This document shows, in pieces, positions 8,008 to 49,888 of a DNA stretch of 64,000 nt. The translations under genes and the position numbers were made by a program. This DNA comes from Entophlyctis helioformis (Eukaryota; Chytridiomycota; Chytridiomycetes; Chytridiales; Chytriomycetaceae). The stretch is taken from the NCBI GenBank assembly GCA_025526915.1, contig JAHLKH010000050.1, positions 62,001 to 126,000 on the forward strand, in the 5' to 3' direction. How positions within the stretch are numbered: position 1 is the stretch's first letter; every line of letters starts with the position of its first letter. Under the pieces are notes generated by a model. It saw only the letters and a program-made list of their open reading frames with translations. It searched no databases and was not told the origin of the DNA.

Positions 8008-10359
8008 TCACATGTCCAGGGGTGGCCCAGACACGAGCCACGGGTGCATCACAACCTGCGCCATGGTCGGCCGGTCGGCAGGAGAGACCTTGAGCATCGA
8101 GTTGATCAGGTCCATGAGGATCGCGGACCGCTTGAACCGCGGATGGCGGTACGAGGCCGTGGCAATGTCCTCGGGCGTGCGGAACGGCAGGCACGAGAAC
8201 GCCATGGTGTAGAGGAGGACGCCCATGCACCAGACGTCGACCTCGGGGCCTCTGTACTTTTCGTTGCGCAGGACCTCGGGCGGCATGTAGTGGATCGTAC
8301 CACGGAAGCCCTCAAAGTAGTCACACGAGCTGGACGGGATGTAGTTTGCCGCGCCAAAGTCGATCAGCTTGGCGTTCAGGCTGTTGTCAATGACAATCTG
8401 TCCGTTCAAGAATGTCAGCTGGCTGCGGGGTGGGCCACTCCACAGCTATTCCAGAGCTACTCGAAAGCGTTTCTGGATCTGCAGTTCAAGGGCAAGCACA
8501 GTCCAGGCCAGCAGTCCCACATACATTCTCATCCTTGATGTCCTGGTGGACAATGTTGTTTTGGTGGAGGTAGTTGACCGAGTCGCTGATCTGCATGAAA
8601 ATATGGCGAATCTTGCGCTCGGCAAAGAAGGGGTTCCTCTCGATGAACTCGAACAGATCCAGCGAGGCGTGGCGGGTATGCAGCCTCTCTGTGGCAGCGG
8701 CGGCTGCAGCCACCGTCGCAGAAGAAACGCTGCCGAGGGTAGCGACAGAGTTGCTCGTGCTGACGGAAATTATGGTACATGACTGCGCGCTGCTGGTGGC
8801 ATGCGAGTGGCTGTGTGCAGACGAGTGGCCCGAGGCTGGCTGGGGAATGGCAATCGAGGGCGACGGCGCGTGGATGGACGATGGTCTGCTGACGCTGCCG
8901 ACCGTGACGGGCGTGGTCAAGGACAGACGGGGTGGTGCTGACGGAGTTGTGGTGGACGACGCTCCAGATGCAGCCGAGGGCCGCAGAGGCGTTTCGACGT
9001 ACGACGTGGGCTCGAGATCGGGTACCATGTGGCTTTCCTTCCAGCGGGCACCGTGCATCTCCATGGCCAAGTAAAAGAACTGGGCAGACACATGTCAGCG
9101 ATCCAGCAGGATCCGGCGAATGGGCATCGGCACAGCCCGCTTTGCTTAGGCTCGGCTGCGTGAGATGGGACGCAAGGCTGCTCGCACAAGGGCCAAGCGC
9201 GGCGGACAGCACAGCGAAGGGGCAGAGTGGAAGCAAAGGCATGCAGATATGTGTGTGCATGTGTGTGTGCGTGTGGGAGTGGGCGTACCTTTGAGTCCTC
9301 AAAGACGTCGTAGAACCGCACGATGTTGGGGTGCTCGATCCGCTTCAGGATGAATACTTCCAGCGGCACGATGCCGAGTGCACGGTCTCGGCGCCAATTA
9401 GCCAGCGGGATGCGGTTTTTGTACAGGAACTTGATGGCCACGGGCTCGCCGTCGTCGAGGCACTCGCCAGCGACGACAAAGCCGGTCGCGCCGTGACCGA
9501 GCTCGTGGCCAAGCGAGTACTTTGCCGTAAAGGCAGGCAGCAGCTGGTGCGATGCCAGCTCCCGCTCTGCAATGGACAGATTCTGGAGGTTCTGGTGCTG
9601 TTGCTGTTGCTGTTGCTGCTGGTGCGGGTGGTGGTGGTTGTGGTGGTTGTGGTGGTTGTTGAGGGTGGGTTTCCGAGAGGGGTATGGCTGAACGGCAGCG
9701 TGGGCGTGCTGCGAGTGCGACTGTGGATGGTGGGATGCGAGCGGGGCCTGCTTCGTGCCCGGGCTGGCACTCGCGGCGGGACTGGTGGCCGCCGCTGGTC
9801 CGGCAGGCGACAGCGGACGCGGAAGATGGATGGCCAGCGACGACGAATGCATGGACGGCTTGCGGTGAAGCGACGAGCCGGCCGACGCAGCGACCGACGC
9901 AGCGGCAGAGGCCGCAGACGGCAGGATCGTGTCCGAGTCTGCCATGTAGTCGCTGCCGGGCTGCAGCGCCGACGCAGCAGCAGCGTTGGGCTCGGCCATA
10001 GGTGCCGGCATCAGGAACGACGAGCCGGCAATGTTTGTCAGCAGCGAGCCATAGGACGACGAGTGCGAGTGCGAGTGTGCTGGCAGAGGCGATGCTGTGG
10101 AGGCGTGGCTGGCCGACGGCGACGGGGCGGGCGAGAGCAGGGCCATGGACGCAGGCGAGGCGAGCGACTTGCCCATGGGCAGCAGCGGAGCGGGAGGGAG
10201 CGCCGTAGCCGTCAGCAGGTCGAGCCAGTCGCCGGCCCAAGTCTTTCTTTTCAGCTCAGCCTCGGCAATGCTGCTGTTGGTGCTGCTGTTGGTGCTGTTG
10301 GTGTGGAGCTGGTGCTGCGGGCGAGGCCTCGGACGGGGGACGGGCGAGGACATCATCAT
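8008..10359 (-). CDS. PAS-kinase-type Ser/Thr protein kinase, HRD changed to HQD
   Basis: Three minus-strand exons. The kinase domain begins YSLGHELGHGATGFVVAGE, with the VAIKF lysine, then PLEVFILKRIEHPNIV and MEMHG. After a Ser/Pro/His-rich insertion of roughly 110 residues it continues with DLFEFIERNPFFAERKIR, IVHQDIKDEN (8542-8550 encodes His-Gln-Asp), LIDFGAAN, GTIHYMPPEVL and a C-lobe ending WLVSGPPLDM. The pattern (LG..PLE, MELHG, DLFxFIE, KDENV) is that of PASK/Psk1/Psk2, which couple nutrient state to sugar and glycogen metabolism. No PAS domain is seen: the N-terminal third is low complexity (poly-His/Gln/Ser/Pro). The first in-frame ATG is at 10359 (MMMSSPV), though the frame is open further upstream, so a 5' exon may be missing. 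Confidence 0.8.
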
Positions 10360-10647
10360 GGCGGTGGCCTGCGAGGGGCCAGAGCCGGCGGGGATGGGGA
10401 TGGCGATGGGGGCGGAGGCGGCAGGGGCGGGCACGGCGATGGGCGACGAGCCCAGGTGGCTGCTGCTGCTGCTGGTGCCGTGCGGGTGAGTCGAGTGAGC
10501 GAGGTGATGCGGGCCGGCGTGCACACCACCACCGGCACTGAAAGCCGACTGCGCCGAGGCGGCCAGGCTGGCGAGGCCGGGCGACGCGGGGCGGCCGAGC
10601 GACGGGCCAGCAGACGAGTAGTGCAGCAGGCCTGCGGACGAGTGGTG

Positions 10648-10720
10648 GTGTGCGTGTGCGTGTGCGTGTGCGTGGCGTGGGCGTGGACATGTGCATGTGC
10701 GTGTGCGTGGTTGTGGAGCC
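10648..10720. repeat. GTGTGC/GTGCAT microsatellite
   Basis: Alternating purine-pyrimidine run dominated by gtgtgc and gtgcat units, upstream of the PAS-kinase gene. The 10360-10954 stretch around it shows no convincing gene; the open minus-strand frame here is Ala/His/Arg-rich and has no ATG. Confidence 0.7.
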
Positions 10721-10954
10721 GCTGTCGCTGCATGTGTGCGTGAGCGGGTTCGGGGTTGCGCGGTTCGGGGGAAGCCTGCAGGAAGACAGCCGGCGGTGGT
10801 GATGAAGAAGAAGGGCGGCGGGGGTCACGTGGCCGCGAGGTCGTGTGCCAGTGGTGGCACGCGGGCGGCGGAGTTTGCCTCGAATTTTGTTCAATTTGGC
10901 ATCCAATTTCCAATCTTTTTGAATCCAATTTCATTTTCTTGTCCGGATTCCCAG

Positions 10955-12711
10955 TCACTCTGAGCGGTCTGCAGCCGATGCCTTCTCAAGTCGTCGTCGC
11001 TTTGACGCTTGCTTGTGGACTGCTGAGCCTGTCCAAGGGGCAGCAGTTGGTTGCGTGTTGGTAGTGTCACGAAGAACTCTCGTGCGACTGCCTGTTGCGG
11101 CTGCTGTCCTTCTGCATCCAGTCGGCGCACTTGTGTGTGCTGTTGGGGCTGCCTGCTGCAATGTCCGAACGGGCGACGTCACAGCCGACACAGACGCACT
11201 GGCACCAGCTGCTGGTGCTCTCTTCCGCTTGCTTGGTGTTCTTTGGCGGCTGGCTGTTGGCGTGGCAGCCACAGCAACGGCTGGCTCTCCAGGCTCATCC
11301 GTAAGGTCCTTGTCGTCGTCGAGATTGTCAAGGCACACAGTGTCAACAGAGTCGCAACTGTTGACAGCCATCGCACAAGAGGCAGACGAGCTCACCAACA
11401 AGGACGTGGATGGATCACTCGGCGGATCGTTGAGCTGCCGCGTATCGTCGAGCTGCTGTAAGGCATCGTGCTTGGATTGGTCTGACTTTCAGAACTGTCG
11501 AGGCGATACACACAGAATGCCTGCAGCAATTCTGCTCACTCATGTCAACCTCTGTCCTGGCTGCCTTTGTGTAGACAGCATACTCTTTCTGGATGGCATC
11601 GCTGATGGATCCCCATACAAAGATGTTGTATGATCTGTCGTAGGATGTGTATGTGCTGTTTGTGCAGTTAGTCTGCTGTGCGATCAGTGCATACACATCC
11701 TATGAGAATATCCTACCGGCATTTGGAGGATGGCTCAACAAGGAATCCGCACTGCTCAACGTCCATCGACCTGATCTTGAAGATGAGTTGCATCTTTCGT
11801 GTGACTGACATGAACTCTTCCAGGTCTGACTTGTCATTCCGGCCCTTTCCAGTCCGTCGTAAACTGTCTCGCCACGCGTTAAACAGCTGTGTTGCATGCA
11901 ATGGTTAGTGCTGATCGTCAAGGAGAGTGTGTCGCCTGCATGCTTGTAAGCTTACTTGCTCCACGGGATAGGACGTAAGCGCGCGACCATACAGGTGCGT
12001 AAAGGTTACTCCTTCTGGGACTGCAAACTCTGCTTTTGGATCAAGTGTCGCAAGCATGCCCAGATTCTAGCTGTTGGCTGCTGCAAAGACGCTCGTCTCG
12101 GCAAACTGCCATGTGAGGTTTAGAAGTCAGTGAGCGATTGCGCTGCTTATTGTGCGTTGTGGGTGATCAGACTTACCTTGTGATGATCGCGGTACTTTGC
12201 ATAGTGCTCAAGGAGTTGGAAGACGCTGCTCTTGAACGAGGGATCAGGATGCAATGCCATGCATCATGATGTCAGGGTTGCTGGGATCGTCGAGGCATGG
12301 GAGCTTGACGAGAAGCTTGTCAATGTCTTTGAGAAGCACCACCAATACTTCACGGCCGCCAAGTTCCATCTTGATGGCAAGAGCAGGGACGTTGTTGTTA
12401 AGTCGTCTTGGCACAAAGCTTGTCAGAACCAAGGGGAGTCGAGACGGCTGGATGCATATGACGCCTTTACGCGGGCCATCTGTGAGCTTGATGAGTGGCA
12501 GCAGCGAATGTATTTGGTTCTTCTCGTCCTCCAGTGTCATGCTTTCGAATGAACCATTGTCGCAGTGGAAGCACAAGCTGTTGTCCAGAAACTTCCCTGT
12601 TGGGTCGATGACCTGTGGGTCTGCTTGACTCGGATCTGGCTCTGTGGCGGCTGCTGCGTCCATGTCGTCCTGCTGGTGCACAGCGGCATGTGGTGGCTGT
12701 TGCTCGTCCAT
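10955..12711 (-). CDS. Uncharacterised protein with basic C-terminus; frame interrupted
   Basis: Minus-strand exons from MDEQQPPHAAVHQQ (ATG 12711) through LVLTSFVPRRLNNN, a short exon ending LLEHYAKYRDHHK, AVPEGVTFTHLYGRALT, LFNAWRDSLRRTGKG, and YNIFVWGSISDAIQKEY, to an Asp/Thr/Ala-rich tail with PSKRKRAP and KQASKRRRLEK (probable nuclear localisation signals), stop at 10955. Good introns (GTAAGT at 12180, GTAAGC at 11955) separate the parts. Two problems: the first exon meets a TGA at 12243-12245 while the coding sense continues in another frame, and a TAG near 12070 interrupts one splice choice (a later acceptor, aaagcagag, would avoid it). It may be a decaying gene or carry sequence errors. 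Family unknown. It is transcribed divergently from the XPG-Fanzor gene. Confidence 0.5.
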
Positions 12712-13063
12712 TCCAACTGTGTCGCCAGAGCACCACTGCCACTGGTGGTGGGATCGCTGTGATTGGTCGAGCCCAGATCTGGTCGCGGCACTTGCCCAAA
12801 TGTGCGCCATCAATAGCGAGCACAACACGGGCGACGACACAGCGGCAGCTGACGGGCGGATGGTTCCGACAGGCGGATGGTTCCGACGGGCACGATGGAC
12901 ATCGGGAAGCGGGCGAACAAAGGCACCGAGCGAGCGGAAAATTGGGCCAAGCTGCCACGTGGCAGGTGGATCTGATGCAAAAAAAAAGTGGATATGGGCA
13001 GCGCTGGGTTTTTCCCATCCCAACAAACAGGCCTTGTTGCACTACACACCCACGGCCGCTGAC

Positions 13064-13155
13064 AGGTGTGTTTGTGTGCCTGTGTGCCTGTGTGTGTGTG
13101 CCTGCGTGTGTGTGTTTCTGTGTGCCTGCGTGTGTGTGTGTGGGTGTGTGTGTTG
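13064..13155. repeat. TG-rich microsatellite
   Basis: Runs of (TG)n interrupted by cctg and cctgcg units. Simple repeat, not coding. Confidence 0.85.
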
Positions 13156-13289
13156 GAGAGGGACGTGTGCATGCAGGCGCAACTGAGCGGCAGACAGCAG
13201 GCTGCACCGATGCACTGCTGGAAGTAGAAGCGCTTGCTGGTACTGACCGTCACGCTGTTCTATGCCCCTGCCTGCCACGCTCTTCACAG

Positions 13290-13383
13290 CCCAAGACCTC
13301 ATCAGCCCACGACTGCCGCCTGCCCAAGACAACCAGCCCACAACTACCGTCTGCCCAAGACCTCGTCATCAGCCCATAACTGC
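13290..13383 (+). repeat. Three imperfect direct repeats of ~32 bp before the XPG-Fanzor gene
   Basis: Units start at 13290, 13323 and 13354, each opening with 'cccaagac' and containing a 'cagccca..aact.c' core. They lie 130-220 bp before the ATG at 13514. They could be transcription-factor sites or a subterminal repeat of the element; sequence alone does not decide. Confidence 0.7.
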
Positions 13384-13513
13384 CACAGTACGCCCCACTC
13401 CTTGCCGCCCATTCTGTTTCGCCGCTGCCACGTGCTTTCTTGCTGTGTGTTTTCTTGCAGACACTCTCTTCACTGCCACATGCTGACGCCCCCGCCACTC
13501 GCCTTGACACAGC

Positions 13514-16500
13514 ATGGGAATCACCGGGTTCGGCCAAGTATCCAAGAAGGGGTATTGCAGCGTCGCAATACACCCCGACGACAAGGTGTCCGATGCATTG
13601 GACGTGGCATTCGGAGCCACACAGCAGCACCAGCCTCATCAACAGCATCAGCCTCATCAGCCAGCCGCACCCAGCATCATCATCATCCTCGTCGACATGC
13701 TGAGTGTGTTCTACCCTCAGCTCGCGGCAGCAGCCGCACTTCAGCCGCCATCGTCCATTGGTGAGTGGCTGGAGATCGTCGCACCCATCCTTGAGGCATT
13801 CCTCAAGTCAGTCGGCGACGGCCGGATCATCATCTTCCACGTCGACGGCCAGCACGGCGACTCTGGCATCAAGCAGCAGGCGCATACCAGCCGCGCCTTG
13901 AGCGTCTTGCGCGCAGCGGCCAAGGTCCAGCAGTTCTTTGCCAAACGTGCAACCAATCAAGGGTTTAGACAGCTAGCAATGCAAGTTCCCTGCTTTGTGT
14001 TGCATGATGCGATCCTAACTAACAGTCGATGTTGCAGAAAAGAGCTGCAAGCCCTCCTCCATTCATTCACGTTGACACGCGACCATAAGGGCCACATTGC
14101 CGAGGCTCTCAAGATGCTGCTTGGACCCACTTCCCCGCATAGGGTCTGTTGGTGTGCCCACGAGGCCGACGTTTGCATTGCACGCGACGCTGCCGAGTAT
14201 GCAAGCCAGCCAAGGTACAGATAGCCATGACATCCGTCTGTTGTGATTGATGGCTGACAATCTGCATCTCACAACAGCGACATTCCCATGGCGGTGATCG
14301 CCAATGACTCAGACGTCATTTTCCACTGCGCCGGACGTTGTCCTGTGATCACGACACGCATGTACCGCGGCCGCGCCACCAATATCCACACATACAATCA
14401 CCAGGGCATTGCGACTGTTGCAGCTGCCCTGGGATTGCGCAGTTTCCCGGGCGCTTGCCAACTGGTCGCCGCCCTTGCAAAAAACGACTATCACGATTGT
14501 TACGGGCGAGGTGTGTGCGATTCCTGGCTTCATGCTCTGTGTTGTCATTGATCCTGTGGTGTTGACTAACTCGCGTTGCCACTCACATCATCTTGCAGGC
14601 ATTGCTGCTGCCGTCAAGTTCGTTAACAAGCAGTTTGACGCCACAGCAAAGAAGCGCGGCTTCAACAACCCGGCCGACTTCTGTGCGCTCCTTCACGATC
14701 GTATGGAGGCCATGGATTTCGCGTACACTGTCGGATTCGCGTACTACAACGACCTCCTGAAGGTTGGAGGCGTGGCTCTTGCCAAAACTTTCCTGAACGC
14801 CTTTGCCGTTTTCATCCTTCACGAGGAATCTGGGGCTTTCGCCAACACGGTCGTCGCCCAGACTGGCAACAGCAGTCAATCCACTGCGCCAGTGCCGAGG
14901 CAAGTCTTTGCTTGACCGGTCGAGGACGCTGCATTGTGGATGCATTTGCATGCATAGCAGCATACTGACCATTCATTGCTACGTGTCAATGACAGCAGCC
15001 AGGCTGCCAACACGACCACCACGCCCCAAGAACGGTATGTATGCATGTGATCTCTACGGGTTCTCGCATTACTGACTTATGCTCCTATTTTGATGTCATT
15101 GTTGGATCGTGATGCAGATGCCAGCTGCGCAACGGCTGCGTTCTTGTTCACCCCAAGTCACAGAAACACAACCCCAACTCGATCGCCGTACATCTGACTC
15201 TGGAGGACGTCGAACGGCTTGGCATCGACATTCTCAACACGAGGGAGATGGATGCAACTTTGGACAAGATCAAGAACTGCCCAATCGCTCTCGACTGTGT
15301 CCTCAAGTACACGGCAGATCGCCTTGCTGGCATGCCAGACAGTGTTGCTGCCCGTGATCGTCTGGCCGAGATCAGCAGGTCGGCGAGCTCGAAACTGTTA
15401 TGGATTGTCCACGAGCAGTCTCAAGCAGCGACAGTACGCGCGACGCTCGAGCCAGTCGATCAGGCTGTTTGGGATGGACACGTAAGTTGCTGCATGTCTC
15501 TGATGCATGTGCACTCCTCGCCTGGACGTGTCAAACTCAATCCACTGCTCATTGTACAGGGCGCTGCTGAAAGGATGAAGAAGCAGTTGGGCAAGATTGT
15601 CAATCGTCCATGCAAACCACACCGCCACTTATCGACACCGCGTACGTACTGCTTGCATTGGGATCATGCCAACTCGTGTACTGACAGCACCTTCTTTGCT
15701 GAACGGTGCCATTACAGAAACAGAAGCGGAGAAAGACTCACAGAAAGACCCACAGCAAGTCAAGCATCAAGGCAAGGCCATCACCCGAGGCGGTTCCCCA
15801 TTGACCGCTGCCGACATCTGCAACAAGGCCGCGGACAGGCTGAACGAACTGAGAAGCCTCACGGATGGCCAACCAGTGACACGCCGCGAGCAGCTGAAAG
15901 CGGCCATCGACTTGCTAGAGTCCATCATCAAGCAAGCCACGGTGCGTCTTCATCTTCACTGGCTGTGTGTGCATGCCATGACTTGGCACGATTGCTCATT
16001 GTTCCACTTGACAGGAGGCTCAAGTGCCCAAGCTGCCCGAGCAAGAACCGCCATCTGCCGACGGCCAGGCTGATCAAGCAGACCGCAAGATCTTGTATCT
16101 CAATCAAGATGCAGACATCCGGACGACGGTCAGTTCTGGTGTTCGTGCTCCATTGCTGCTTGCGTGTACATTGTGTGCACTTGGAATGCATTGCTGATGG
16201 TGCATCCAACCTCCACAGGCGCGACGCCAAATCACCAAGCAACAGGAGGCTGCGAACAAGCAGAAGCGCGAAAAGCAAGCTGCCAAGGCCATGGCAGACA
16301 AGGCCATCGACAGGAACAAGGAGAGTGCACGCCGGCAAGACCGCCACACCCAACCAGTGGACCCGAAGCAGACGTGAGTGTTGTACACTGTGCCATGTGC
16401 CTTGGGCATGCTTGCTGACATCTGTGGGGTTTGCAGACGCAAAGGTGGAGCACGAGTGACACAACGTTGGGTTGACAGAAAGGAGGGACGCCTCACGTCA

Positions 16501-19500
16501 GGGGCACCCATGACGCTCCCTGCGGCCACTGCCAGCAACAATCAACAGCCTGCTACAGTCACCAGCGGCGATGATCAACAGCCAGCCGCGGACACGCCCG
16601 GCCATCCCACCAATGACGCACCTGATCCACCCGCTGCAGACGCACCCGACCATCGTAGCATGAGAGTGGAGCTGGAGGTAAGATTTAGGATCACCATTCT
16701 GCCTGCCTGCATGCATGTATGACTTTGCATTTACTGACATGTTGGCTGGCATGGTGCTCAGGACATGCTGTCCAGTGGCCCGCAGAGTGCCCCGATCTTT
16801 GGCGTTCATGCCATCAGGTCATCGGCAGGTTGGACGCGTCCTCTGCTCTCCCAGGACGTCGTCGCAAGGGTGCACTCGTTTACCGTCGGTGCGCGGCATG
16901 CCGGCCTCGTCATCATCGGCGCCATCCTCGAAGAGCTGCTTGAGCTCGATCAAGACGCACCCCTACCGCCCAAGTACCATGTCTACGGCTGGCTCGATGG
17001 CCAGACAACGCGGTACTGCTTCCTGGATGTCGACTTCAAGCAACTCGACAACCTCGGTGACAAGGACATCATCAAGGGCCTCGGCGCTGTCACGAAAGCG
17101 GAGCTCCTGTCTGGCCGGTTCACGCTTTGCGAGGGCATCACTGCGCGGGCCATGTACGGACGGAGTCGATACAACCACACGAGCCAGGAACGTCGCTTTG
17201 GGCACCCAGTGAAACTGGCAAAGGGTACAACACTCGAGTGCTGTACATTCGAGTCGCCTGAGTCGCCTGAGCATGACACCGCCAAGCAGCCCGACGATCA
17301 ACCAGTTGCACCCCAGCCAGCTGTGCCTGATGATCACGGCAAGCCTGAGCAGCCAGCAGCAGCAGCACTGGCAGTGCCAACACCAGATGACATTCTCTCG
17401 ATCATCACCACAGACGAGTCGTCCATGGCATCCCTCTTCCGGCACGTGTCGTATGTGTTGACTGGAAGCGGGATGGAGCAGCCGCAGTCCACCATGCTCC
17501 AGCTCAATGCTTGGCTTGTGACCATCGCCCAGCTCATGATCCATCGTTGCTGGACGCCGAGCACGTTGCAGGCCAACGCGACCAAGAGAGCCAACGCGAC
17601 CAAGAACAACGCGCGGCAGAAGGGCACAACCAAGAACGACGCGCGGAAGGCTGAGTGGAAGGCAGGCGCACGGCATCCGACCAGATGGTGGTCGAGCTCG
17701 CACCCAGACAATGCACAACGGGCTGATGCACAGCAGGCAGCTGTGCCCTATCGGCTTGTCAACACCCTGCTGACCGCGAGCGGCGACATATTCAAAAACC
17801 TGGCGAGGGAGGTGAGCGCCACACTCGCCACACACTTCATCACAAACCGGTCAAAGCTGGCATTGGTCGCAGCCCAGAGAGCAATGCCTGCTGCGACTTC
17901 TGAGCAGATTGCAGCGTGGGTTGATGCCATATTCGCGACCGTTGAGACCACGAAGGTCGCCAGGCGTGCCGCCACTCAGGACACTGCTCAGGCTGCTGCT
18001 CAAGACGCCCCATTGCTGGCCATCGAGGACGACGCCATGGACGACGCCATGGATGCCACCCAGGATGTCGCTCATCCCGCCCCAAGTCTCAAGCGGACCG
18101 CGTCACAGCTTCTGCTGGCCACCGATGGCAGCACATCCAAGAGGCAAAAGGACGAGACTACTGCCCCTGTCGCCACAGATGCCACGCAGGACACACCACC
18201 AGCCGCACAGGACGGGGACGCCATCGAGATCCCGCAAGAGCTGCATCCAATTCAGGCGATTGTGCGCAGCATGTCAACATCGGACATTGGACGGTTCTAC
18301 CAACTCCTCAAGCTCGCTGGCACTTCAGTGATGAAGCTATGCCCGCAGCCAGCCAGCCGCGATCCTTTTATCCTCATCACCGAGGCCACGCTCTTTTGGG
18401 CAGTGGTGGGGCAGCAAAGGGATCGCATGAATGGCAAGCGCGATCCTGTCCTCCAAGCATTGCGAGAGGAGCTCCTGGCCGCAGTTGGTAAGTTGCATGT
18501 GTCTATGCCACGTCAATGCTATTTGATGCTGACACTCCACTTTTATCCAAAACTGCAAAGATGGCACGTTGACTCTCGAGTCGACTAACAACGACATCCA
18601 AAGGGCTTTCAGCAATAGCAAGGAGCTGGCCATCCTCGACATCCTCCTGCCCGGCCTCCGCCCCAAGAATCGACGCCTTCCAACACAGGCTGAGGGTGAT
18701 GAGGCTGCAGTTGATTCTCAGCCTCTGGTGGCTTCAAAGCAAGTGATCAGACAAGGCAGCATCATGACGGATGGATACACGGTCTATCAGCTGGCACTGG
18801 ACTGCCGCGCAGACCGTCCAGAGTCGCCTCGCAGTATGTGCCATGCTTGGATGCTTTGGTGCACGCATTGATTCTGACCACTGCCTTGCTCTGCAGGTCC
18901 CAACGCGGCGTCTCCAGCCCAGCAGCCCAGTCTTGCGGATGCTGCTGTTGGCATCCTTAATGCCTTGAATGGTCAATTTATTGAGCCTGACCACATGGAC
19001 ATCACATGTGAGTTGCTGTGCCAATCCAGACGCATGCTTGTTGTCCACACCGACTGACATGCCATCCACAGCCGCCGATCCTGCCGACTCATCAGCCACC
19101 AAGCCATACACGCCCAATCCTGTAAGCCACTTGCATGCTAAACTCGCGCATTGGTGCCCATGCATTGCACATTCCTCACTCATGCCATGGCATGGCAGGC
19201 TCAGCGCAACTTTAATGCATCCCAGCGACTGCCCAATGTTGCTGATGCCAACAAGCTGCTCGCCGACAAGGGCTACCAGACTGTTCGCGTTGTCAGCTTT
19301 GATTGGGGCCAGCGGTACCTGTATGGCGCGTCCAGCATGCTGGTCAATGTTAAGGAGGAGACATACACCATGGAGTCCAACTACGTGCTCTCTTCTGGCA
19401 TGGCACGAGCCGAGCACAGCCTTCAGCGGTGGTATGCATGCAATGACTCTGCCACGCGCACTCTTGACCAGATCAACTCACAGTGCCTGCCTCTTGTGCC

Positions 19501-20376
19501 AGGTTCAACAATCGATATGCCAAGGCGACCGACGTCCACGAGGCCATTGCATTCAAGACAGCAAAGCATGCCGATCCAGCCGTCTCAGCAGGCGAGAGAG
19601 CCTTTTGGGATCTGCGCTGCCATGCGTACTGCACGCCATTCCTGAATGCACGGGTACGTTTTCTCTGTTTCTGGATGCCCATTGCCATGACCGCCATACT
19701 GCTTGATCGCCTGCTGATTGCACTGGATGGCATGGCGTGACATGGCATTCCACAGAAGGTCAAGGCCAAGCGGTTCACCATGCGCAGCAACAGCATGTCT
19801 TTTCGCGGACATGCTCTTGAGGGCATCATGAATCTGGCAGGATCGACCACTAGATATCGCGCATCTCGTGCGTCTCAAGGCCTCCCTGTCAGCAACCCAG
19901 AGAAGGACATTCCCGTTGTGTGGGCATTTGGCATCGACTTTACAGGCCAAGGTGGCCGGCACGCTGTGTTTGAGAGGTTTCTCATCAGGCATCTGCGGTC
20001 GTCTGGATATGCCTATGTGCGTCTGATGCCAACTATCCATCCATCCATCTGTGCACCAACTGACCACACGATCATGCACACACACACACACACACAGATC
20101 TACCGCTGCAACGAGAACCTGACCAGCCAGATGTGCCCGCAGTGCAAGCAGCGGATCCCAGACAAGAACCGCACCAACCTGCGACGCTACGAGTGCACAG
20201 ACTGCAAGACTGTCTACCACCGCGATGTGCTTGGTGCCACCAACATCGGAATGGTCGCACTGGGGCATCTGCTCTTTGGACACCGGCCGCTCTACTTGAC
20301 GCACACGCCAGCCGGTCAGCCTGTCAACAGCATCGCAGCAGCATCCTCCATGGACACAGCACGTCACTCCATGTGA
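13514..20376 (+). CDS. XPG/FEN1-type nuclease fused to a Fanzor (TnpB-like) RuvC nuclease
   Basis: Nineteen exons: 13514-13980, 14038-14214, 14278-14510, 14599-14899, 14996-15034, 15118-15481, 15560-15641, 15718-15941, 16015-16128, 16219-16373, 16437-16677, 16762-18487, 18561-18833, 18897-19007, 19072-19121, 19199-19431, 19503-19653, 19756-20016, 20098-20376. They total 5,481 nt (1,826 residues) with matching phases and no stop. Introns 1 and 4 are GC-AG. N-terminus MGITGFG is FEN1-like; acidic ligands fit D61, D111 (HVDGQ), E198/D200 (HEAD), D225/D227 (NDSD) and D285 (NDY). Residues ~520-1500 are a linker with a helical Lys/Gln-rich exon, an unknown block (16762-17260) and a likely NLS (LKRTASQ...KRQK). 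The C-terminus has RuvC-I VVSFDWGQR (D1554), RuvC-II RCNENLTS (E1740), zinc ribbon C1747/C1750/C1767/C1770 and RuvC-III HRDVLGATNIG (D1777). Fanzors are RNA-guided DNA endonucleases. Two separate genes cannot be excluded without transcripts. Confidence 0.85.
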
Positions 20377-20466
20377 CTTCCAGCACAACCACCAACACTT
20401 TGAATCGGGGCACCTCCCGATCGACCTAACGGGTCACTTATCACATCATTATTTCAATAATAATGA
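20377..20466 (+). ncRNA. Candidate omega-RNA scaffold or structured 3' end of the Fanzor gene
   Basis: Three hairpins follow directly after the stop codon. Stem 1 is ATCGGG (20404-20409) with CCCGAT (20416-20421) and a 6-nt loop. Stem 2 is GACC (20423-20426) with GGTC (20432-20435). Stem 3 is TCATTATT (20446-20453) with AATAATGA (20459-20466) and a 5-nt loop; it is perfect. In known Fanzor and TnpB loci the guide RNA scaffold overlaps or follows the 3' end of the nuclease gene, so the position is suggestive. A terminator or UTR structure would look the same. Confidence 0.35.
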
Positions 20467-20849
20467 AAGGTAAGCATCTCGTTGGATGTGCCTCGCCCGC
20501 CTGTCGTCGCATGCTCGTTGCTGACTCGAACCTTCCATCGTGTGATGTGCTTGCTTGCATTCGACGCTTCTCGGGTTGAATCCAATTCCAAAACGCTTGG
20601 TAATTGTTTGAATGTCGGGCCATTTGCCGGCGGAGTTTGGTTGGTCGACGGCGACGACGTCATGGGATTCGCCCTGGATTCGCCCTGGGTTCGCCTGCGG
20701 TTCGCCCTGGATCAGCCCTCAGATTGGAGCAGGCTGGGAGGTGGGCTGGAGATGGCTGGAGCTGGACGGCGGCAGTGCTGTGTTGATCGGCAGTGCTGAA
20801 CAGCGCTCGAGGGCTGGAGCGTGCGGCAATGGAGACAGGCAGGCAGTCT
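20467..20849. other. Non-coding stretch between the Fanzor 3' end and the LAMTOR5-like gene
   Basis: No convincing gene on either strand. It contains repeated 'ttcgccctgg' motifs at 20669-20710 and Gly/Trp-coding purine-rich sequence. Nothing identifies its function. Confidence 0.5.
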
Positions 20850-21584: not shown

Positions 21585-23679
21585 ATGGACAAGCGCTCGA
21601 TTGGCATTCTTGGAGGCGGCCAGCTGGGCAGGTGTGTGCTCGGTCTGCCTGCCTGCATGTCTGCATGTCTGCTGCTGCTGCTGCATGTCTGCATGTCTGC
21701 ATGTCTGCATGCCCATCTGTCTGCCTGAAGACCAGCCTTGGACACTGCCAGGCGCTCATGCACTCGCTCCGTTGCTTGCACGCCTGCGGCTGACCACTCA
21801 ACCCACAGAATGCTCACAGAGGCGGCCAACCGCCTCAACGTCCCGGTCGCCATCCTCGACAGCGCCCACAACCCGGCCGCCCAGATTTCCGCCCCTGCCG
21901 ACGCCCGCCATGTCGTGGGCAGCTTCAAGGACCCGGCCAAAATCCGTGAGCTGGCCGCCGTCTCGGGCGTCCTGACCGTCGAGATTGAGCACGTTGATGC
22001 CGATGCGCTGGCCGCCGTCGAGGCCGAGACCGGCGTCCCTGTTCACCCGTCGCCCAAGACGATCCGCATCATCCAGGACAAGTACCTGCAAAAGACCCAC
22101 ATTGCCGCCCACGCCCCTGCCGTGCCCATCGCTCCCTTCCGAGACGTCACGCCCGGCAGCGAGGCCGAGTCCATCCTCGCTGCCGCGCTCGACTTTGGCT
22201 ACCCGCTCATGCTCAAGTCCAAACGCTCGCCTACGACGGCCGCGGCAACCGCGCTGTCCACAACGCTGGCGAGATCGGCGACGCCATCGAGGCGCTCGGC
22301 GGCGGCGCGGCAAAGAACGGCCCGTCGCTCTACGTCGAGAAGTGGGTCACGTTTGTGCGCGAGCTGGCCGTCATGGTCGTCAGGTCGACCACCGGCGAGA
22401 CCGTCACGTACCCGTGTGTGGAGACGGTGCAAAAGGACAACATCTGCCACCTGGTCATTGCGCCTGCGCAGATCGACGGCATGATTGCCGACAAGGCCCG
22501 TGCTGCTGCCAAGAACGCCGTCTCCGTGCTCGACGGTGCTGGCATCTACGGCGTCGAGCTGTTCCTTCTCAGCGACGGTGAGTCTGGAGCAGAGTGCACT
22601 CGGTGTGCGGCGTCCTTCTCAACCTGTCTTGTGCCATGCCGACAGACTCAATCTACCTCAACGAGATCGCCCCCCGCCCACACAACTCGGGCCACTACAC
22701 CATCGAGGCGTGCAACACGTCCCAGTTTGAGAACCATGTCGCGCCATTCTGGGCATGCCGCTCGGCTCGCCGCTGCTCAAGGTGCCTGCCTCGATCATGA
22801 TCAACATCATCGGAACGGGCTCGGACGATGCGGCTCTTGAAGAGACGCTCAAGGCGTGCCATGCATCGCTTGCCATTCCAGGCAGCACCATCCACCTGTA
22901 CGGCAAAGGCGGCGTGCGCAAGGCGCGCAAGATGGGCCACATCACGCTGGTGGGCGAGACCATGGCAGATGTCATTGCCAACACCAAGCAGATCCTGCAG
23001 CACATCCCCGGCAGCGGCGTCACGGCCGAATCGCTGGCGTCGCAGTCGCCCGACGCGTCCGAGCCGCTGTGGGCACAACCCAACCCGCTGGTTGGCGTCA
23101 TTATGGGATCCGACTCGGACCTGCCCACCATGCGCGCTGCTGCCCTCATCCTCAAGGGCTTTGGCGTGCCGTTTGAACTCACGATCGTGTCCGCTCACCG
23201 CACGCCCGACCGCATGGTGCACTACGCCAAGACGGCCCACGAGCGCGGCATCAAGGTCATTATTGCCGCTGCTGGTGGTGCGGCGCATCTGCCCGGCATG
23301 GTGGCGGCCATCACGCCGCTGCCTGTCGTCGGTGTGCCCGTCGCTCTCAAGGTTCTTGACGGTGTCGACTCGCTGCACTCGATTGTCCAGATGCCTGTAA
23401 GTCACAGACGGCCGCCCCTCCCATACGCTTGCGGTGATCGCCTTGCTGGTCTGACACTTCTTGTGTGCGTGCGTGTTCTCTGTCTAGCGCGGTGTTCCGG
23501 TCGCGACGGTCGCCATCAACAACTCGACCAATGCGGCGCTGCTGGCGATCCGCATCCTTGGCGTGCACATGCCCAGCTACCTCGAGCAGCTCCAGGACTA
23601 TGCGCGGCTGCAGGAAGACGAGGTGCTCCGCAAGGTCGATGTGCTGGAAGAGGTCGGATGGGAGCGCTACAGCGCATAG
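21585..23679 (+). CDS. ADE2: Phosphoribosylaminoimidazole carboxylase (PurK-PurE fusion)
   Basis: Starts [16 protein letters not shown] at 21585, then a first intron of about 220 nt. The N-terminal PurK-like ATP-grasp part includes [10 protein letters not shown], a DGRG block and [12 protein letters not shown]. The C-terminal PurE-like part has [22 protein letters not shown] and [12 protein letters not shown], ending [10 protein letters not shown] at 23679. It converts AIR to CAIR in purine synthesis; this two-domain fusion is the fungal form. Other introns: GTGAGT at 22577 and GTAAGT at 23398. Two single-base gaps break the frame: at AAA 22221-22223 (an added A restores [10 protein letters not shown]) and at 22740 (an added C restores [11 protein letters not shown]). 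These look like consensus errors rather than inactivation. Confidence 0.93.
21653..21712 (+). repeat. TGCATGTC tandem repeat in ADE2 intron 1
   Basis: About seven copies of tgcatgtc, split by a (CTG)4-5 run at 21670-21682. Located inside the first ADE2 intron. Confidence 0.8.
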
Positions 23680-23793
23680 GCCGCTCGCCGCCAACCCAGA
23701 TGCGATGCGATGCGATGCGAGTGAATGAATGGGCCGATCTGAATCTCACTTCTCCTCCCGTTCATCCTCCGCCTCTTGAGCGGCATCGGAGCT

Positions 23794-25806
23794 ATGGGCT
23801 TTCAACGGCTGGTGGCAGATGCGGCCACTCCACAAGACCGGGCTGCTGGTGGCTATGCACTGCTTGACAGCCACTCGGCGCTGGTCCAGGAAGCGGCGGC
23901 AGTGGAGACGAGCTCAACTGCGACCTCATGGACGGTGAGCCAGACCTGCATGCTTTCGAGTCTCGGCTGTGGCCTGCCTGCGTTCAACGCACCACACGCA
24001 CACACACACCACGCACACATACGATGCACGGCTGACAGATGTGCCATTGCAGGGTTCGCTATTGTGGTGCAGGTGCTGTTAGCAACCATTGCGCTCGGGT
24101 CGCTGTTCATCAAGCGGTGGCGTGAGCGGCCACAGCGGCCGCTTCTTGTCTGGTATGGGGGCGGCTGGCTGCATCTGCCTGCATCTGGCTGCATCTGGCT
24201 GCCGATCGTGTCCGACTGGCGCTGACACTCACTTGCGGGGCATGCGGTCCCGTGTGCAGGGCCATGGACACCTCCAAGCAGGCGCTCGCAGCCTCCATGG
24301 TGCATTTCGTCAATGTGTTTGTGTCGTCCATCTCGGGCATCGACGCTGAGGGCCGCGAGGGACGGTCCACCAACCCATGCGTGTGGTACTTTTTGAATGC
24401 AAGTGTCGCTGGCGGCGGATGTGGCGGGCGAGACACTGGCACTGACTGTCACTGACTGACTGGCTGACTGCTGGCTGGCTGGGACAGTTGGGACTGGACA
24501 CGACGATCGGCGTGGGGATCCTGTACGTGTTCTTGAAGGGCTGCACGCCGTTGCCGAGGCACTCAAGATCACGGACATGGAGTCGGGCATCTACGGCAAC
24601 CCACCACGGTGCGTGGCTTCTCTGCTTCTCTCTGCATCTCTCTGCCTCTCGGTCTCTCAACAACCGCGCCATCCTCCAACGCGGCCATGACAGGTTCGGC
24701 CCATGGATCAAGCAGCTCACCTTATTCATTACCGCCTGGTTCTTTGTCAAGCTGAGCATCGTCATTGCGCTCGAAGTGTTCCCCATCTTTGGCATATTAG
24801 GCGTGTGGATTCTGTCGCCGCTGGCTGCCACGGGCGACCCGCGGCTGCAAGTCATTGTCGTCATGCTCGTGTTCCCGCTCATCATGAACATCATCCAGGC
24901 GTGGCTGATCGACTTTGTCATCAAGGGCAAGATCGGCAAGGCGCGTGTCAGGGTGGGCGGCAACCGCGGCCAGCAGCAGCAGTGGGTAGTGCAAGCGCTC
25001 GTCGTCGTCGCAGCCATCTGGCTGGACGCGGAGACGGTGGCGATGGCGGTCAAGACGCGATATCGCCAGTCGGCTCAGGCAGTTTGGGGCCGTATGATGT
25101 GGAGGAGGATGCCAGCCATGTTGGCGAGTATGACGAAGGGTTCTATGCCAGCCACGACGATGATATTGAGCAGGCATTCATGGACGACAGCGACGCCGAC
25201 TCTCCTCATTCTTCTCGAGTTGCATCAGCAGGATCAGCATCAGCAGTCGACGGTGGATCTGTCTCGGCCGGGCTACGCGGACGGCGAAGGCGGACGGGCA
25301 GTGGGCATATTGCGCATTCGGACGGATGGGCACGATGGATTGGCGGGTTCTTTGGCGCAGGACACGCACAGCCGCCCCTGAGCGACTACACGGCGCTACG
25401 CCGCACTGCGTCTGACGAGGCTCTTGCCAATCCAACCAGTATCGGCAACAGTGGCAGCGCGACGCATTCCGTCGCGACAGAGGCAGCACCAGGATCGCCG
25501 ACATTCTCTGAAGAGTCGCAGGCTGCAACACCCAGGGCGTCGCAAGCTGCAAAATCTGGGACAGCAGGTGCATCTGGGACGGCGTCTCGCGCAGGACCGT
25601 TGCCGCCTCTCAAGACGCCGAGCGGCGTTGTTGCTGCATCCAGCCACAATGCATCTCTGCTCTCGCCGCAGTCGGCAGCGCTGCAGCGTCCAGGCGGTGG
25701 TGGCGGCCCGTCCGCAGCAGCAGCAGACAACGGCGCGCCGTCGCCAGCATCCATCTACTATTCGGCGCGCACGTCGCCGGCCACCAGCCATTCGCCGCGC
25801 CAGTGA
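23794..25806 (+). CDS. STIMATE/YPL162C-type multi-pass membrane protein
   Basis: Exons encode [81 protein letters not shown] and [19 protein letters not shown], giving about five membrane helices. This pattern is that of the fungal vacuolar-membrane protein YPL162C and animal STIMATE (TMEM110), which sits at ER-plasma-membrane contacts and aids store-operated calcium entry. A long Ser/Ala/Gly-rich cytosolic tail ends SPRQ at 25806. The frame breaks at GGG 24538-24540; an extra G restores [14 protein letters not shown]. Another frame change between about 24950 and 25090 could be an intron with a weak donor or a second missing base. Start [11 protein letters not shown] chosen as the first ATG. 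Confidence 0.75.
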
Positions 25807-47553: not shown

Positions 47554-49888
47554 TACTTGTATGGCGGTCGTGTCTTGGACGACAGGCTTGTGATGCAGCG
47601 GATCTGCAGGTCGACCTTGTGCTGGAGTGCCTGGCACTCGTGGGGCTGCAGCCCAGACTGCGACCGGTCAGATAGCATTCGCGCAATGTCGTTTGTGATG
47701 TCGCGCAGGAGAGACAGGTTGCCGCCATGGACACCGACATGCGCGGCGACTCGGACTCGCTCGTGTACGGCATAGCGCTGGATGCACGCGAGAGTGGCGA
47801 TACTCGTGCTGCCGGCCCATCAGCAGCAGCGGAGGGCGAGATGGACACCGTGACGGGCGACGATCGATTGTGGATGTGATCACTGACAGCTGGGTGTGTG
47901 GGAGTGGCTGTTGCTGCACTGGTGGCAGATGTCGCAGGGCTGATTGTGTCGGCTGCTGCTGGCGATGAAGACGATGCAGGTGCTGCTGGATCGCCTGCTG
48001 TCGATGATGGCATGGCGAGCGCAATGGCGACACTGCTGCCGGGCGTGTTCTTGCGCGTTGGCGGCGGGGAAAGCGGGTTGGCTGGAACTGGCGTCTTCCC
48101 CCCATCGGCACCTGCAGATGTCGCAGTGGTCGTTGGCGCAGTGGGAACTGGCGTGATGCCTGTATCGCGTGGGTCGGGATTGGACGCAGATCGTGGCGAC
48201 GGCTCGTCAGGCCGGTGTTCAGTGTTTCTTGACGTCCCACGCAGCAGAGCTTCGACTATTTTTGAGTGTTCGCGAATGGCGCCTGGGAGTGCAATGCTGG
48301 GCTGCTGTTGCTGCTGGTCGGAAGCGTGTGCCGAGCCCATCAGATCCAGCACAGACTGCCTGGCTGTGACCGGAGGCCGTTTCCATGCTTCGGTTGTGCT
48401 TGCGATGCTTGCTGTCGAGCCGCGATGGGCAGACGAAGATGGATAGTCGCTAGTGTACGGCTTGTCATGGCGATCGCCGGCAATCGTGGATGCTGCAGAC
48501 GAGGGCAGATATCGAGACGCAGTGGATGCGTAGCGTGTGTAGGCGCTAGGCTGGCCAGCAGACGTCATTGCAGTAGGGTCTGTTGGCGGCACAGCAGTTG
48601 CTTCGCGCACAATGCCGGATGCGTAATGCTCGCGTGTTGGCGTTTCGCGCCTGGCACCGTAGTCGGACCATTCACGGGCATCTCCAGCCGAGGCTTGCCC
48701 ATTCATGGATTCGTACGACGGCATGTGGCGACGAACGCTTGCCGAGCTGTACGGGCGGGCCGACGACAGGTACTGGCTTGATCCGCCAGCTGCTGAGGAT
48801 GTTGGCTGGTACACGCTTGCGCCATAGCCACTCGGTGTTGCAGCCGCCGATCCTGCCACCGAAGCAGCACCTGAGCCGCCTCCGCCAGAGATGTACATCT
48901 GGCGATGGATGCTTTCGGCCAGACTGGTATGGCTGGCGACCGACGAAGTGGATGGACGGCGGTACCCATACTCTGAGCCGCGATCGCTTGGCGCATAGGC
49001 TGACGCCGACGAATGCAGCGGCGGCTGCGGCTGCGGCGGCTGGCCGCGAACGGAGCTCTGGTAGTTCTGACTCTGGCTGCTGGTGTATGGGCTTTGGTAC
49101 GGCGAGCGGGCGTACATCTGCGTCGGCGTTGCAGGCGGCTGTGGATGGTACGCCGGCTGCTGCTGGTACTCGTATGGCGAGGCAGGCGGCAAGTCGCGGC
49201 CGCCCCCATACACGGACGACGTGGTTGATCCGCTGAAGCTGGGACGATGCTGCAGCTGGTGCTGGTAGTCGTCGTAGCCGCTGCCGCGATGATCCAAGTG
49301 CCGCGACTCGAACGAGGTCATGGGTCGCGGTGCTGCGTAGCTGGATCTCGAGTATGGCCGGCTGTAGCCAGCAGGGTCGCCTCCCGACAGCGACATGGAC
49401 GAAGACGCAGCGGACAGCGACGGCGGCTGGCCCATGGCGATTGCCGTCTGGTGGTGGCCGGCGCCGGTCGAGCCAGACAGCGAGCTGATCGAGGGGCCAC
49501 GACGGACTTGGCGCAGATGGTCGTACGGCATCTGCTCGCCATGCACAGAGTGCGGGGCCGGAGATGCAATGCCTTGTGGCGGCTGGCCGTATGCAGACAG
49601 CGGCGACGGCTCTGGCTGCTGCTGGTGGTGGTAGTGCGACGAGTACGACAGTCTCGACGACGACGTCGAGGACGTTGGCGGCGGCTGCGGCGGCGGCGCA
49701 TGGCTTGGCTCTTGCCACGAAGGAACGCCTCCAGCAGACGATGGCTGATAGTGGTGCGGCTGCGGCCCGTGCTGTGGCTGCTGGGGCATGCCGCCATACA
49801 CAGAGCTCGTGTCTCGGATGCCCATCTGGCTGCGTGAGCCAGTGCGCAGAAGACGCTGTGCCTGGAGGTCACGCTCGCTGGAGCGCAT
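47554..49888 (-). CDS. Long intrinsically disordered Ser/Pro/Gln/Tyr-rich protein
   Basis: Starts MRSSERDLQAQRLLRTGS at 49888 and runs ~730 residues of low-complexity sequence rich in S, P, Q, Y, H and T (SSVYGGMPQQPQHGPQPH, YSRPYSRSSYAAPRPM) without intron signals. Short blocks such as SVLDLMGSAHASD may be ordered. Near 47715-47735 the coding sense shifts frame into an amphipathic helix, NLSLLRDITNDIARMLS, followed by ECQALQHKVDLQIRCI and KTRPPYK, stop 47554-47556; one extra base would join them. AATAAA lies about 10 nt beyond the stop. A scaffold or condensate-forming role is possible; family unknown. Confidence 0.6.

Follow-up and report, generated by a model that had tools for sequence, protein, structure and literature searches.

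The stretch analysed here, a 64,000-nucleotide window on contig JAHLKH010000050.1 of the aquatic chytrid Entophlyctis helioformis, carries on its forward strand at 13514-20376 a gene in which a 5'-nuclease domain of the FEN1 class, a linker and a Fanzor-like RuvC nuclease follow one another, and which lies in turn within a transposable element retained at 10863-20633. Nineteen exons splice into one stop-free frame of 1,825 amino acids plus stop, or of 1,826 if the intron 4 acceptor at 14995 is used in place of that at 14998, so that the 19-exon open frame of the original prediction is reproduced to within one residue of its 1,826; the same frame is intact in two other genomic copies, C1 (L074) and C38 (L075). 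The introns of the window copy measure 57-102 nt, and with none above 102 bp there is no room between exons for the end of one gene and the start of another. We consider it very likely, from this anatomy as read in the sequence, that a single polypeptide carries both nuclease halves.

Exon 1 (13514-13980, plus strand, as for all exons) holds the MGI start and the first part of the FEN1-class domain, with D61 in LVDML and D111 in FHVDG, and ends at a GC donor; exon 2 (14038-14214) contributes the HEAD motif with E198 and D200, exon 3 (14278-14510), the query used for counting copies, the NDSD (D225, D227) and NDY (D285) motifs, and exon 4 (14599-14899) the C-terminal part of the domain, ending again at a GC donor. 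Beyond intron 4 (14900-14998) lies the linker, made up of exon 5 (14999-15034), exon 6 (15118-15481) and the fast-evolving exons 7-11 (15560-16677; individually 15560-15641, 15718-15941, 16015-16128, 16219-16373 and 16437-16677), in which the frame is largely kept. Exon 12 (16762-18487) encodes 575 residues for which a Pfam search returned no match, and exons 13-19 (18561-20376; individually 18561-18833, 18897-19007, 19072-19121, 19199-19431, 19503-19653, 19756-20016 and 20098-20376) encode the Fanzor-like part, with the RuvC-I aspartate D1553 (DWG), E1739, a C4 ribbon and a final D1776. Both GC donors, those of introns 1 and 4, are supported by GT at these sites in some other copies: the first is GT in L075-L078, and its placement at 13981 follows from GT at exactly that point in four other copies, while the second is GC in the window and five other copies and GT in L078.

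The two nuclease halves

Structure prediction, on a low-confidence model, confirms for the N-terminal half the fold of a FEN1/EXO1-class 5'-nuclease, and the FEN1-like character first proposed for it is borne out by the matches of this fold: the first 40 Foldseek rows are all 5'-nucleases, and the 50 rows returned by VIA-align consist entirely of 5'-nucleases that act on DNA (FEN1, EXO1, T5 Fen, T4 RNase H, ExoIX, plastid Exo1, mycobacterial FEN and Pol I). FEN1 begins MGI, and the metal ligands of its human form are D34, D86, E158, E160, D179, D181 and D233; seven acidic ligands are matched to these by motif in the window protein (D61, D111, E198, D200, D225, D227 and D285), with one E-to-D change, and one related protein in the nr database, P0005, has N at the second of the seven positions. 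The element nuclease shares fold class, acidic metal-binding residues and MGI start with the FEN1/EXO1/XPG class, which includes the host XPG and FEN1 (L031, L033), but differs in being transposon-borne, fused to a RuvC nuclease and too divergent for Pfam XPG models: no XPG-type model exceeds the Pfam cut-off in the window protein (0 families), and XPG_I_2 appears in five of six nr paralogues at E 0.006-0.04, below that cut-off.

Entries for XRN1, XRN2 and Xrn1-ribosome also stand among the Foldseek matches, and would suit an XRN-like enzyme that acts on RNA and not on DNA, trimming guide RNA from the element's own message, in whose 3' untranslated region a candidate scaffold lies (see below). 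Such a role is nonetheless unlikely in our view, as the VIA-align rows are without exception DNA 5'-nucleases and TnpB can process its own guide RNA with no 5'-nuclease domain.

The C-terminal half carries the TnpB/Cas12f1-like zinc ribbon PF07282 (E 1.3e-11; 44.9 bits vs. a cut-off of 26.3) and retains the D-E-D residues of a RuvC nuclease, D1553 in RuvC-I, E1739 and D1776. The glutamate occupies the shifted position (Ealt), where six residues separate it from the first Cys of the zinc ribbon, and the pattern ExxxxxxCxxC...CxxC...D is present. Published fingerprints of Fanzors include a RuvC2 glutamate six residues before the zinc finger and a near-exclusive RuvC1 DPG (Yoon 2023, PMC10711439), and the motif D-X(125,275)-[TS]-[TS]-X-X-C4 finger-X(5,50)-RD (Bao and Jurka 2013, PMC3627910). 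The window protein conforms to the latter, with 188 residues lying between the RuvC-I Asp and TSQMC, followed by the C4 ribbon and RD. RuvC-I reads DWG and not DPG in all four aligned copies, and we therefore call the half Fanzor-like; the ribbon, the catalytic triad and the shifted glutamate uphold in part its earlier assignment as a Fanzor RuvC nuclease, from which the DPG fingerprint is missing.

Copies in the genome and conservation of the frame

Searches of the genome (29.57 Mb in 482 contigs) with exon 3 of the window nuclease and with a divergent exon 3 returned 150 and 149 matches, respectively; the merged rows of the first search plus one row of the second make up 147 nuclease loci, which include partial ones and perhaps assembly duplicates, and two further searches located at least 175 Fanzor loci. 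When each nuclease locus is matched with the closest of the listed Fanzor loci, the partner is downstream in the same orientation at no more than 15 kb for 92 of the 147, and less than 9 kb away for 81, of which 80 fall at 4.9-8.2 kb; for none is it upstream in that orientation. With Fanzor positions shifted by four fixed offsets as a control, 0 to 4 downstream pairs fell within 9 kb; a count with another query paired 38 of 65. Homologues with the halves always in separate genes would speak against a fusion, and within this genome the 81 downstream, same-strand pairs represent the opposite outcome. Chance splicing or a fusion confined to one copy is ruled out by a layout that recurs in dozens of loci and a frame kept in two other copies. 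Two of the copies, C14 and C331 (L087, L088), have left flanks that look identical over the stretch read, and one may therefore be an assembly duplicate or a second haplotype.

For closer comparison six further copies (L073-L078) were read in stretches of 10 kb, that of L077 beginning inside exon 1, and set against the window. Of the 108 introns of the six, 103 have GT or GC and AG in the columns aligned with the window's splice sites, and the frame runs uninterrupted over all 19 exons in three of the seven copies, namely the window, C1 (1,841 aa) and C38 (1,876 aa). Wherever an exon of these two differs in net length from the window the change is a multiple of three (6/6 in each), vs. one of the two introns of altered length in C1 and two of the eight in C38. 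The ratio of nonsynonymous to synonymous substitution rates (dN/dS, by the NG86 method) between the window and C1 or C38 is 0.35 or 0.43 over the whole frame and 0.23 or 0.27 over exons 1-4. A chance or decayed frame that yields no working fused protein would account for the frame breaks in the remaining four copies (L073, L076, L077 and L078), but is extremely improbable given three intact frames, the overall ratios and the still lower ones in the nuclease exons, and a layout kept in 81 loci.

Constraint is uneven along the protein. Across linker exons 5-11 of the six copies, net length changes are divisible by three in 11 of 12 cases and single gap runs in 19 of 23, and the linker looks to be translated but loosely constrained. 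Measured against the window, C38 and C178 reach 91 percent likeness in the C half and 77-78 percent in the N half, while C2, C14, C123 and C331 reach 93 percent in the left ends and 42-63 percent in the nuclease exons; from this unequal likeness, parts of the element appear either to have been swapped from one element to another or to evolve at unequal speeds. Window segments 10863-12800 and 17671-20633 are closer between several copies than the middle, which suggests module exchange or gene conversion, and the right end of L078, at 79 percent, departs from the pattern of similar right 3 kb. A separate comparison over window 13963-20097, which took intron 1 from 13963, found introns less diverged than the flanking third codon positions in 16 of 18 cases in L077 and 17 of 18 in L078, and in 10/17, 11/18, 12/18 and 12/18 in L073-L076; introns 13 and 14 of L077 diverge by 5 percent and the exons next to them by 33-39 percent.

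The nr relatives retrieved come from the same organism. In a search that covered proteins of about 200-640 aa, a profile of the nuclease half matched seven nr proteins with E no higher than 0.01, each of them from E. helioformis, and one E. helioformis protein is 96 percent like the nuclease half over a quarter of its length; each nr search scored some 8,000 candidates (7,994) sharing most words within a length window, and a wider spread is possible. Among these models, P0001, from a sister copy, shares the intron 1 donor of the 1,825-aa model and ends in KKRQVLA, as expected if the intron 4 GC donor is left unspliced and translation runs on to a stop, while P0002, from a divergent copy, extends past the nuclease into sequence that corresponds to exons 5 and 6 and then ends. 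P0007 starts like the nuclease half and continues as a stretch of Pol_BBD type (E 0.012, under the cut-off), perhaps a retrotransposon lying in that copy. A virus origin was discarded, as pattern scans built from four-sequence alignments found neither half to have a relative in viral_contigs.

The shortened protein of model P0001 could be a real alternative product, and invites the view that the locus makes two proteins, by separate transcripts, by alternative splicing such as read-through at the intron 4 donor, or by cleavage of a precursor. A poorly conserved linker and halves that diverge differently between copies could also be expected of two products; set against this are the length changes in threes in the linker exons, the splice consensus kept in nearly all aligned introns and the short introns of the window copy, the largest of 102 bp, which together make two proteins decidedly improbable compared with the single polypeptide we favour.

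The mobile element and its right end

The limits of the element in the window (10863-20633, no strand assigned) derive from a DNA search on the left, where one limit is common to 35 of 40 places, and from alignment to six other copies on the right. The window copy is devoid of the outermost ends known from other copies, about 70 bp on the left and about 36 bp on the right: beyond the left limit, a run of GAGGGG precedes TAATTGATTTCG in seven of the ten left ends read, and 18 distinct right ends terminate in CCCACCCCTC or a one-base variant, giving the element short inverted GAGGGG ends. At both ends of the window copy itself (10863-10880 and 20622-20645) stands CGGCGGAGTTTG, possibly the trace of an unusual insertion or repair. 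Mutator-like elements (MULEs) are defined by an 8-9-bp target duplication together with inverted ends; a 9-bp repeat, AGAGTAAGC, flanks the C178 copy and is absent from C1 and C125, the other two of three copies with both ends read.

A second, divergently oriented gene occupies 10955-12712 on the minus strand, where the window copy, read by eye, may be broken. Its first exon has 48 matches in the genome, pieces counted, and a stretch about 41 percent like the gene also lies near other nuclease copies, e.g., C49 and C78. Pfam returned no match for its pieces, and nothing in the element was recognised as a known transposase, which leaves space for an arrangement in which the 5'-nuclease itself serves transposition, acting on branched excision or insertion intermediates at the ends, with the RuvC part guarding or re-cutting the donor site. 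The 9-bp repeat around C178 would agree with such a nuclease, but it is seen in one of three copies, and Spu-1 Fanzor elements also lack a transposase of their own and yet do without a 5'-nuclease domain (PMC10432273), so that we attach little probability to this arrangement.

At 20400-20470 on the plus strand, in the 3' untranslated right end, tandem stem-loops form a candidate guide-RNA scaffold, in the position where Fanzor guide RNAs are described to lie (PMC10432273). Three of them, SL1, SL2 and SL3, recur between stop codon and right end in 20 distinct sequences; in L025 a G-C pair of SL1 is replaced by A-U, a compensatory change, and the sequence of SL3 varies widely between copies. Nine variants folded singly gave SL1 and SL2 in all nine and SL3 in seven, with z of -1.3 to -4.1, and a comparison with Rfam placed the right-end RNA in no family.

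The element sits between what we take to be a protein-kinase-like gene (8917-10824, minus strand) and an ADE2-type purine gene (21729-23867, plus strand). Farther along the window, ARAGORN calls a transfer-messenger RNA at 48255-48918, unexpected in a fungus and probably false.

Relation to known systems and possible role

Among the closest published counterparts is SPu-1 of Spizellomyces punctatus, a 2.1-kb element whose Fanzor1, SpuFz1, is a 633-aa protein in a single frame (PMC10432273, PMC3627910). Like it, the present element is a multicopy fungal one with inverted ends, a C-terminal RuvC domain with zinc ribbon and a structured (here candidate) RNA region from stop codon to right end; unlike it, the element spans about 9.8 kb, and its 1,825-aa product, encoded by 19 exons, has a FEN1-class nuclease at the N terminus, a 575-aa exon lacking a Pfam match and DWG in place of DPG. 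PGv-1 also joins a Fanzor and a second nuclease in one element, although there the nuclease is of the GIY-YIG type and has its own gene next to a mariner transposase (PMC3627910), whereas the one described here belongs to the FEN1 class and shares its frame with the Fanzor-like part. In the Fanzor and TnpB literature, judged mostly by titles, we met no published description of a 5'-nuclease-Fanzor fusion, in agreement with the original prediction, to which no account of the two families in one protein was known.

Several results weigh against a working fused nuclease of a mobile element and must be set beside the broken frames mentioned above. Eleven of the 147 nuclease loci have their listed Fanzor at 9-13 kb, three have the nearest one on the opposite strand and 52 have none among the listed loci within 15 kb; conversely, 81 of the 175 listed Fanzor loci are paired within 9 kb and 94 are unpaired, so that solo Fanzor loci may exist. 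The nr proteins matching the nuclease half are 151-520 aa long, within a search whose length rule covered about 200-640 aa, and full-length and Fanzor-side searches of nr, each scoring the 7,994 candidates richest in shared words, found no homologue of greater length at E 0.001. Against C1 and C38, respectively, dN/dS is 1.00 and 0.55 in exons 9-11, a weak constraint on the linker, and 0.58 and 0.74 in exons 16-19, a modest one on the RuvC part between close pairs. The confidence of the N-half structure model is low (mean predicted local distance difference test, pLDDT, 58; predicted template modelling score, pTM, 0.45), a first model gave no significant Foldseek match, and an hhalign comparison with host FEN1 and XPG, each taken as a single sequence, did not rise above shuffles. 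Finally, the RNAalifold consensus of the 20 right ends earned no bonus for covariation (covariance term 0.25) and lacked SL3, on account of which the right-end RNA is a candidate only.

At the level of sequence, we show co-linear halves in dozens of copies, a spliced frame in three, selection upon it, the catalytic residues of both nucleases and a right end with predicted structure. Taken together, these data probably describe a high-copy DNA transposon of E. helioformis that encodes a FEN1/EXO1-class 5'-nuclease and a Fanzor-like RuvC nuclease, connected in one polypeptide by a long linker and with a putative role in cutting and then trimming DNA. We propose that the right end would be transcribed as a guide RNA whose guide portion reads into flanking DNA, and that the Fanzor-like part would cut a matching site, for instance on the sister chromatid or in an empty allele; the 5'-nuclease tethered to it could then trim 5' flaps or resect 5' ends and so expose 3' strands, upon which repair would copy the element into the cut, 5' trimming favouring recombinational copying. 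A cut-and-copy scheme of this kind, with an RNA-guided break followed by recombinational copying, is described for the TnpB of IS200/IS605 elements and has been considered for Fanzors in PMC10432273; the present protein would differ from such TnpB in containing a resection-type nuclease within the same chain. We put forward the cut-then-resect role tentatively, and with somewhat greater reserve its fuller form, a natural RNA-guided cut-and-resect enzyme that would make a double-strand break and itself produce the 3' strands to steer repair towards recombination, so that a eukaryotic transposon could be copied without awaiting host resection.

The biological role of Fanzors has been described as unknown (PMC10432273). 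The fusion, in dozens of copies, of a Fanzor-like protein to a nuclease of the flap-removal and resection class offers a clue that the guided break is meant for processing and makes the cut-and-copy idea directly testable, and it would provide a natural precedent for coupling a programmable nuclease with a resection enzyme.

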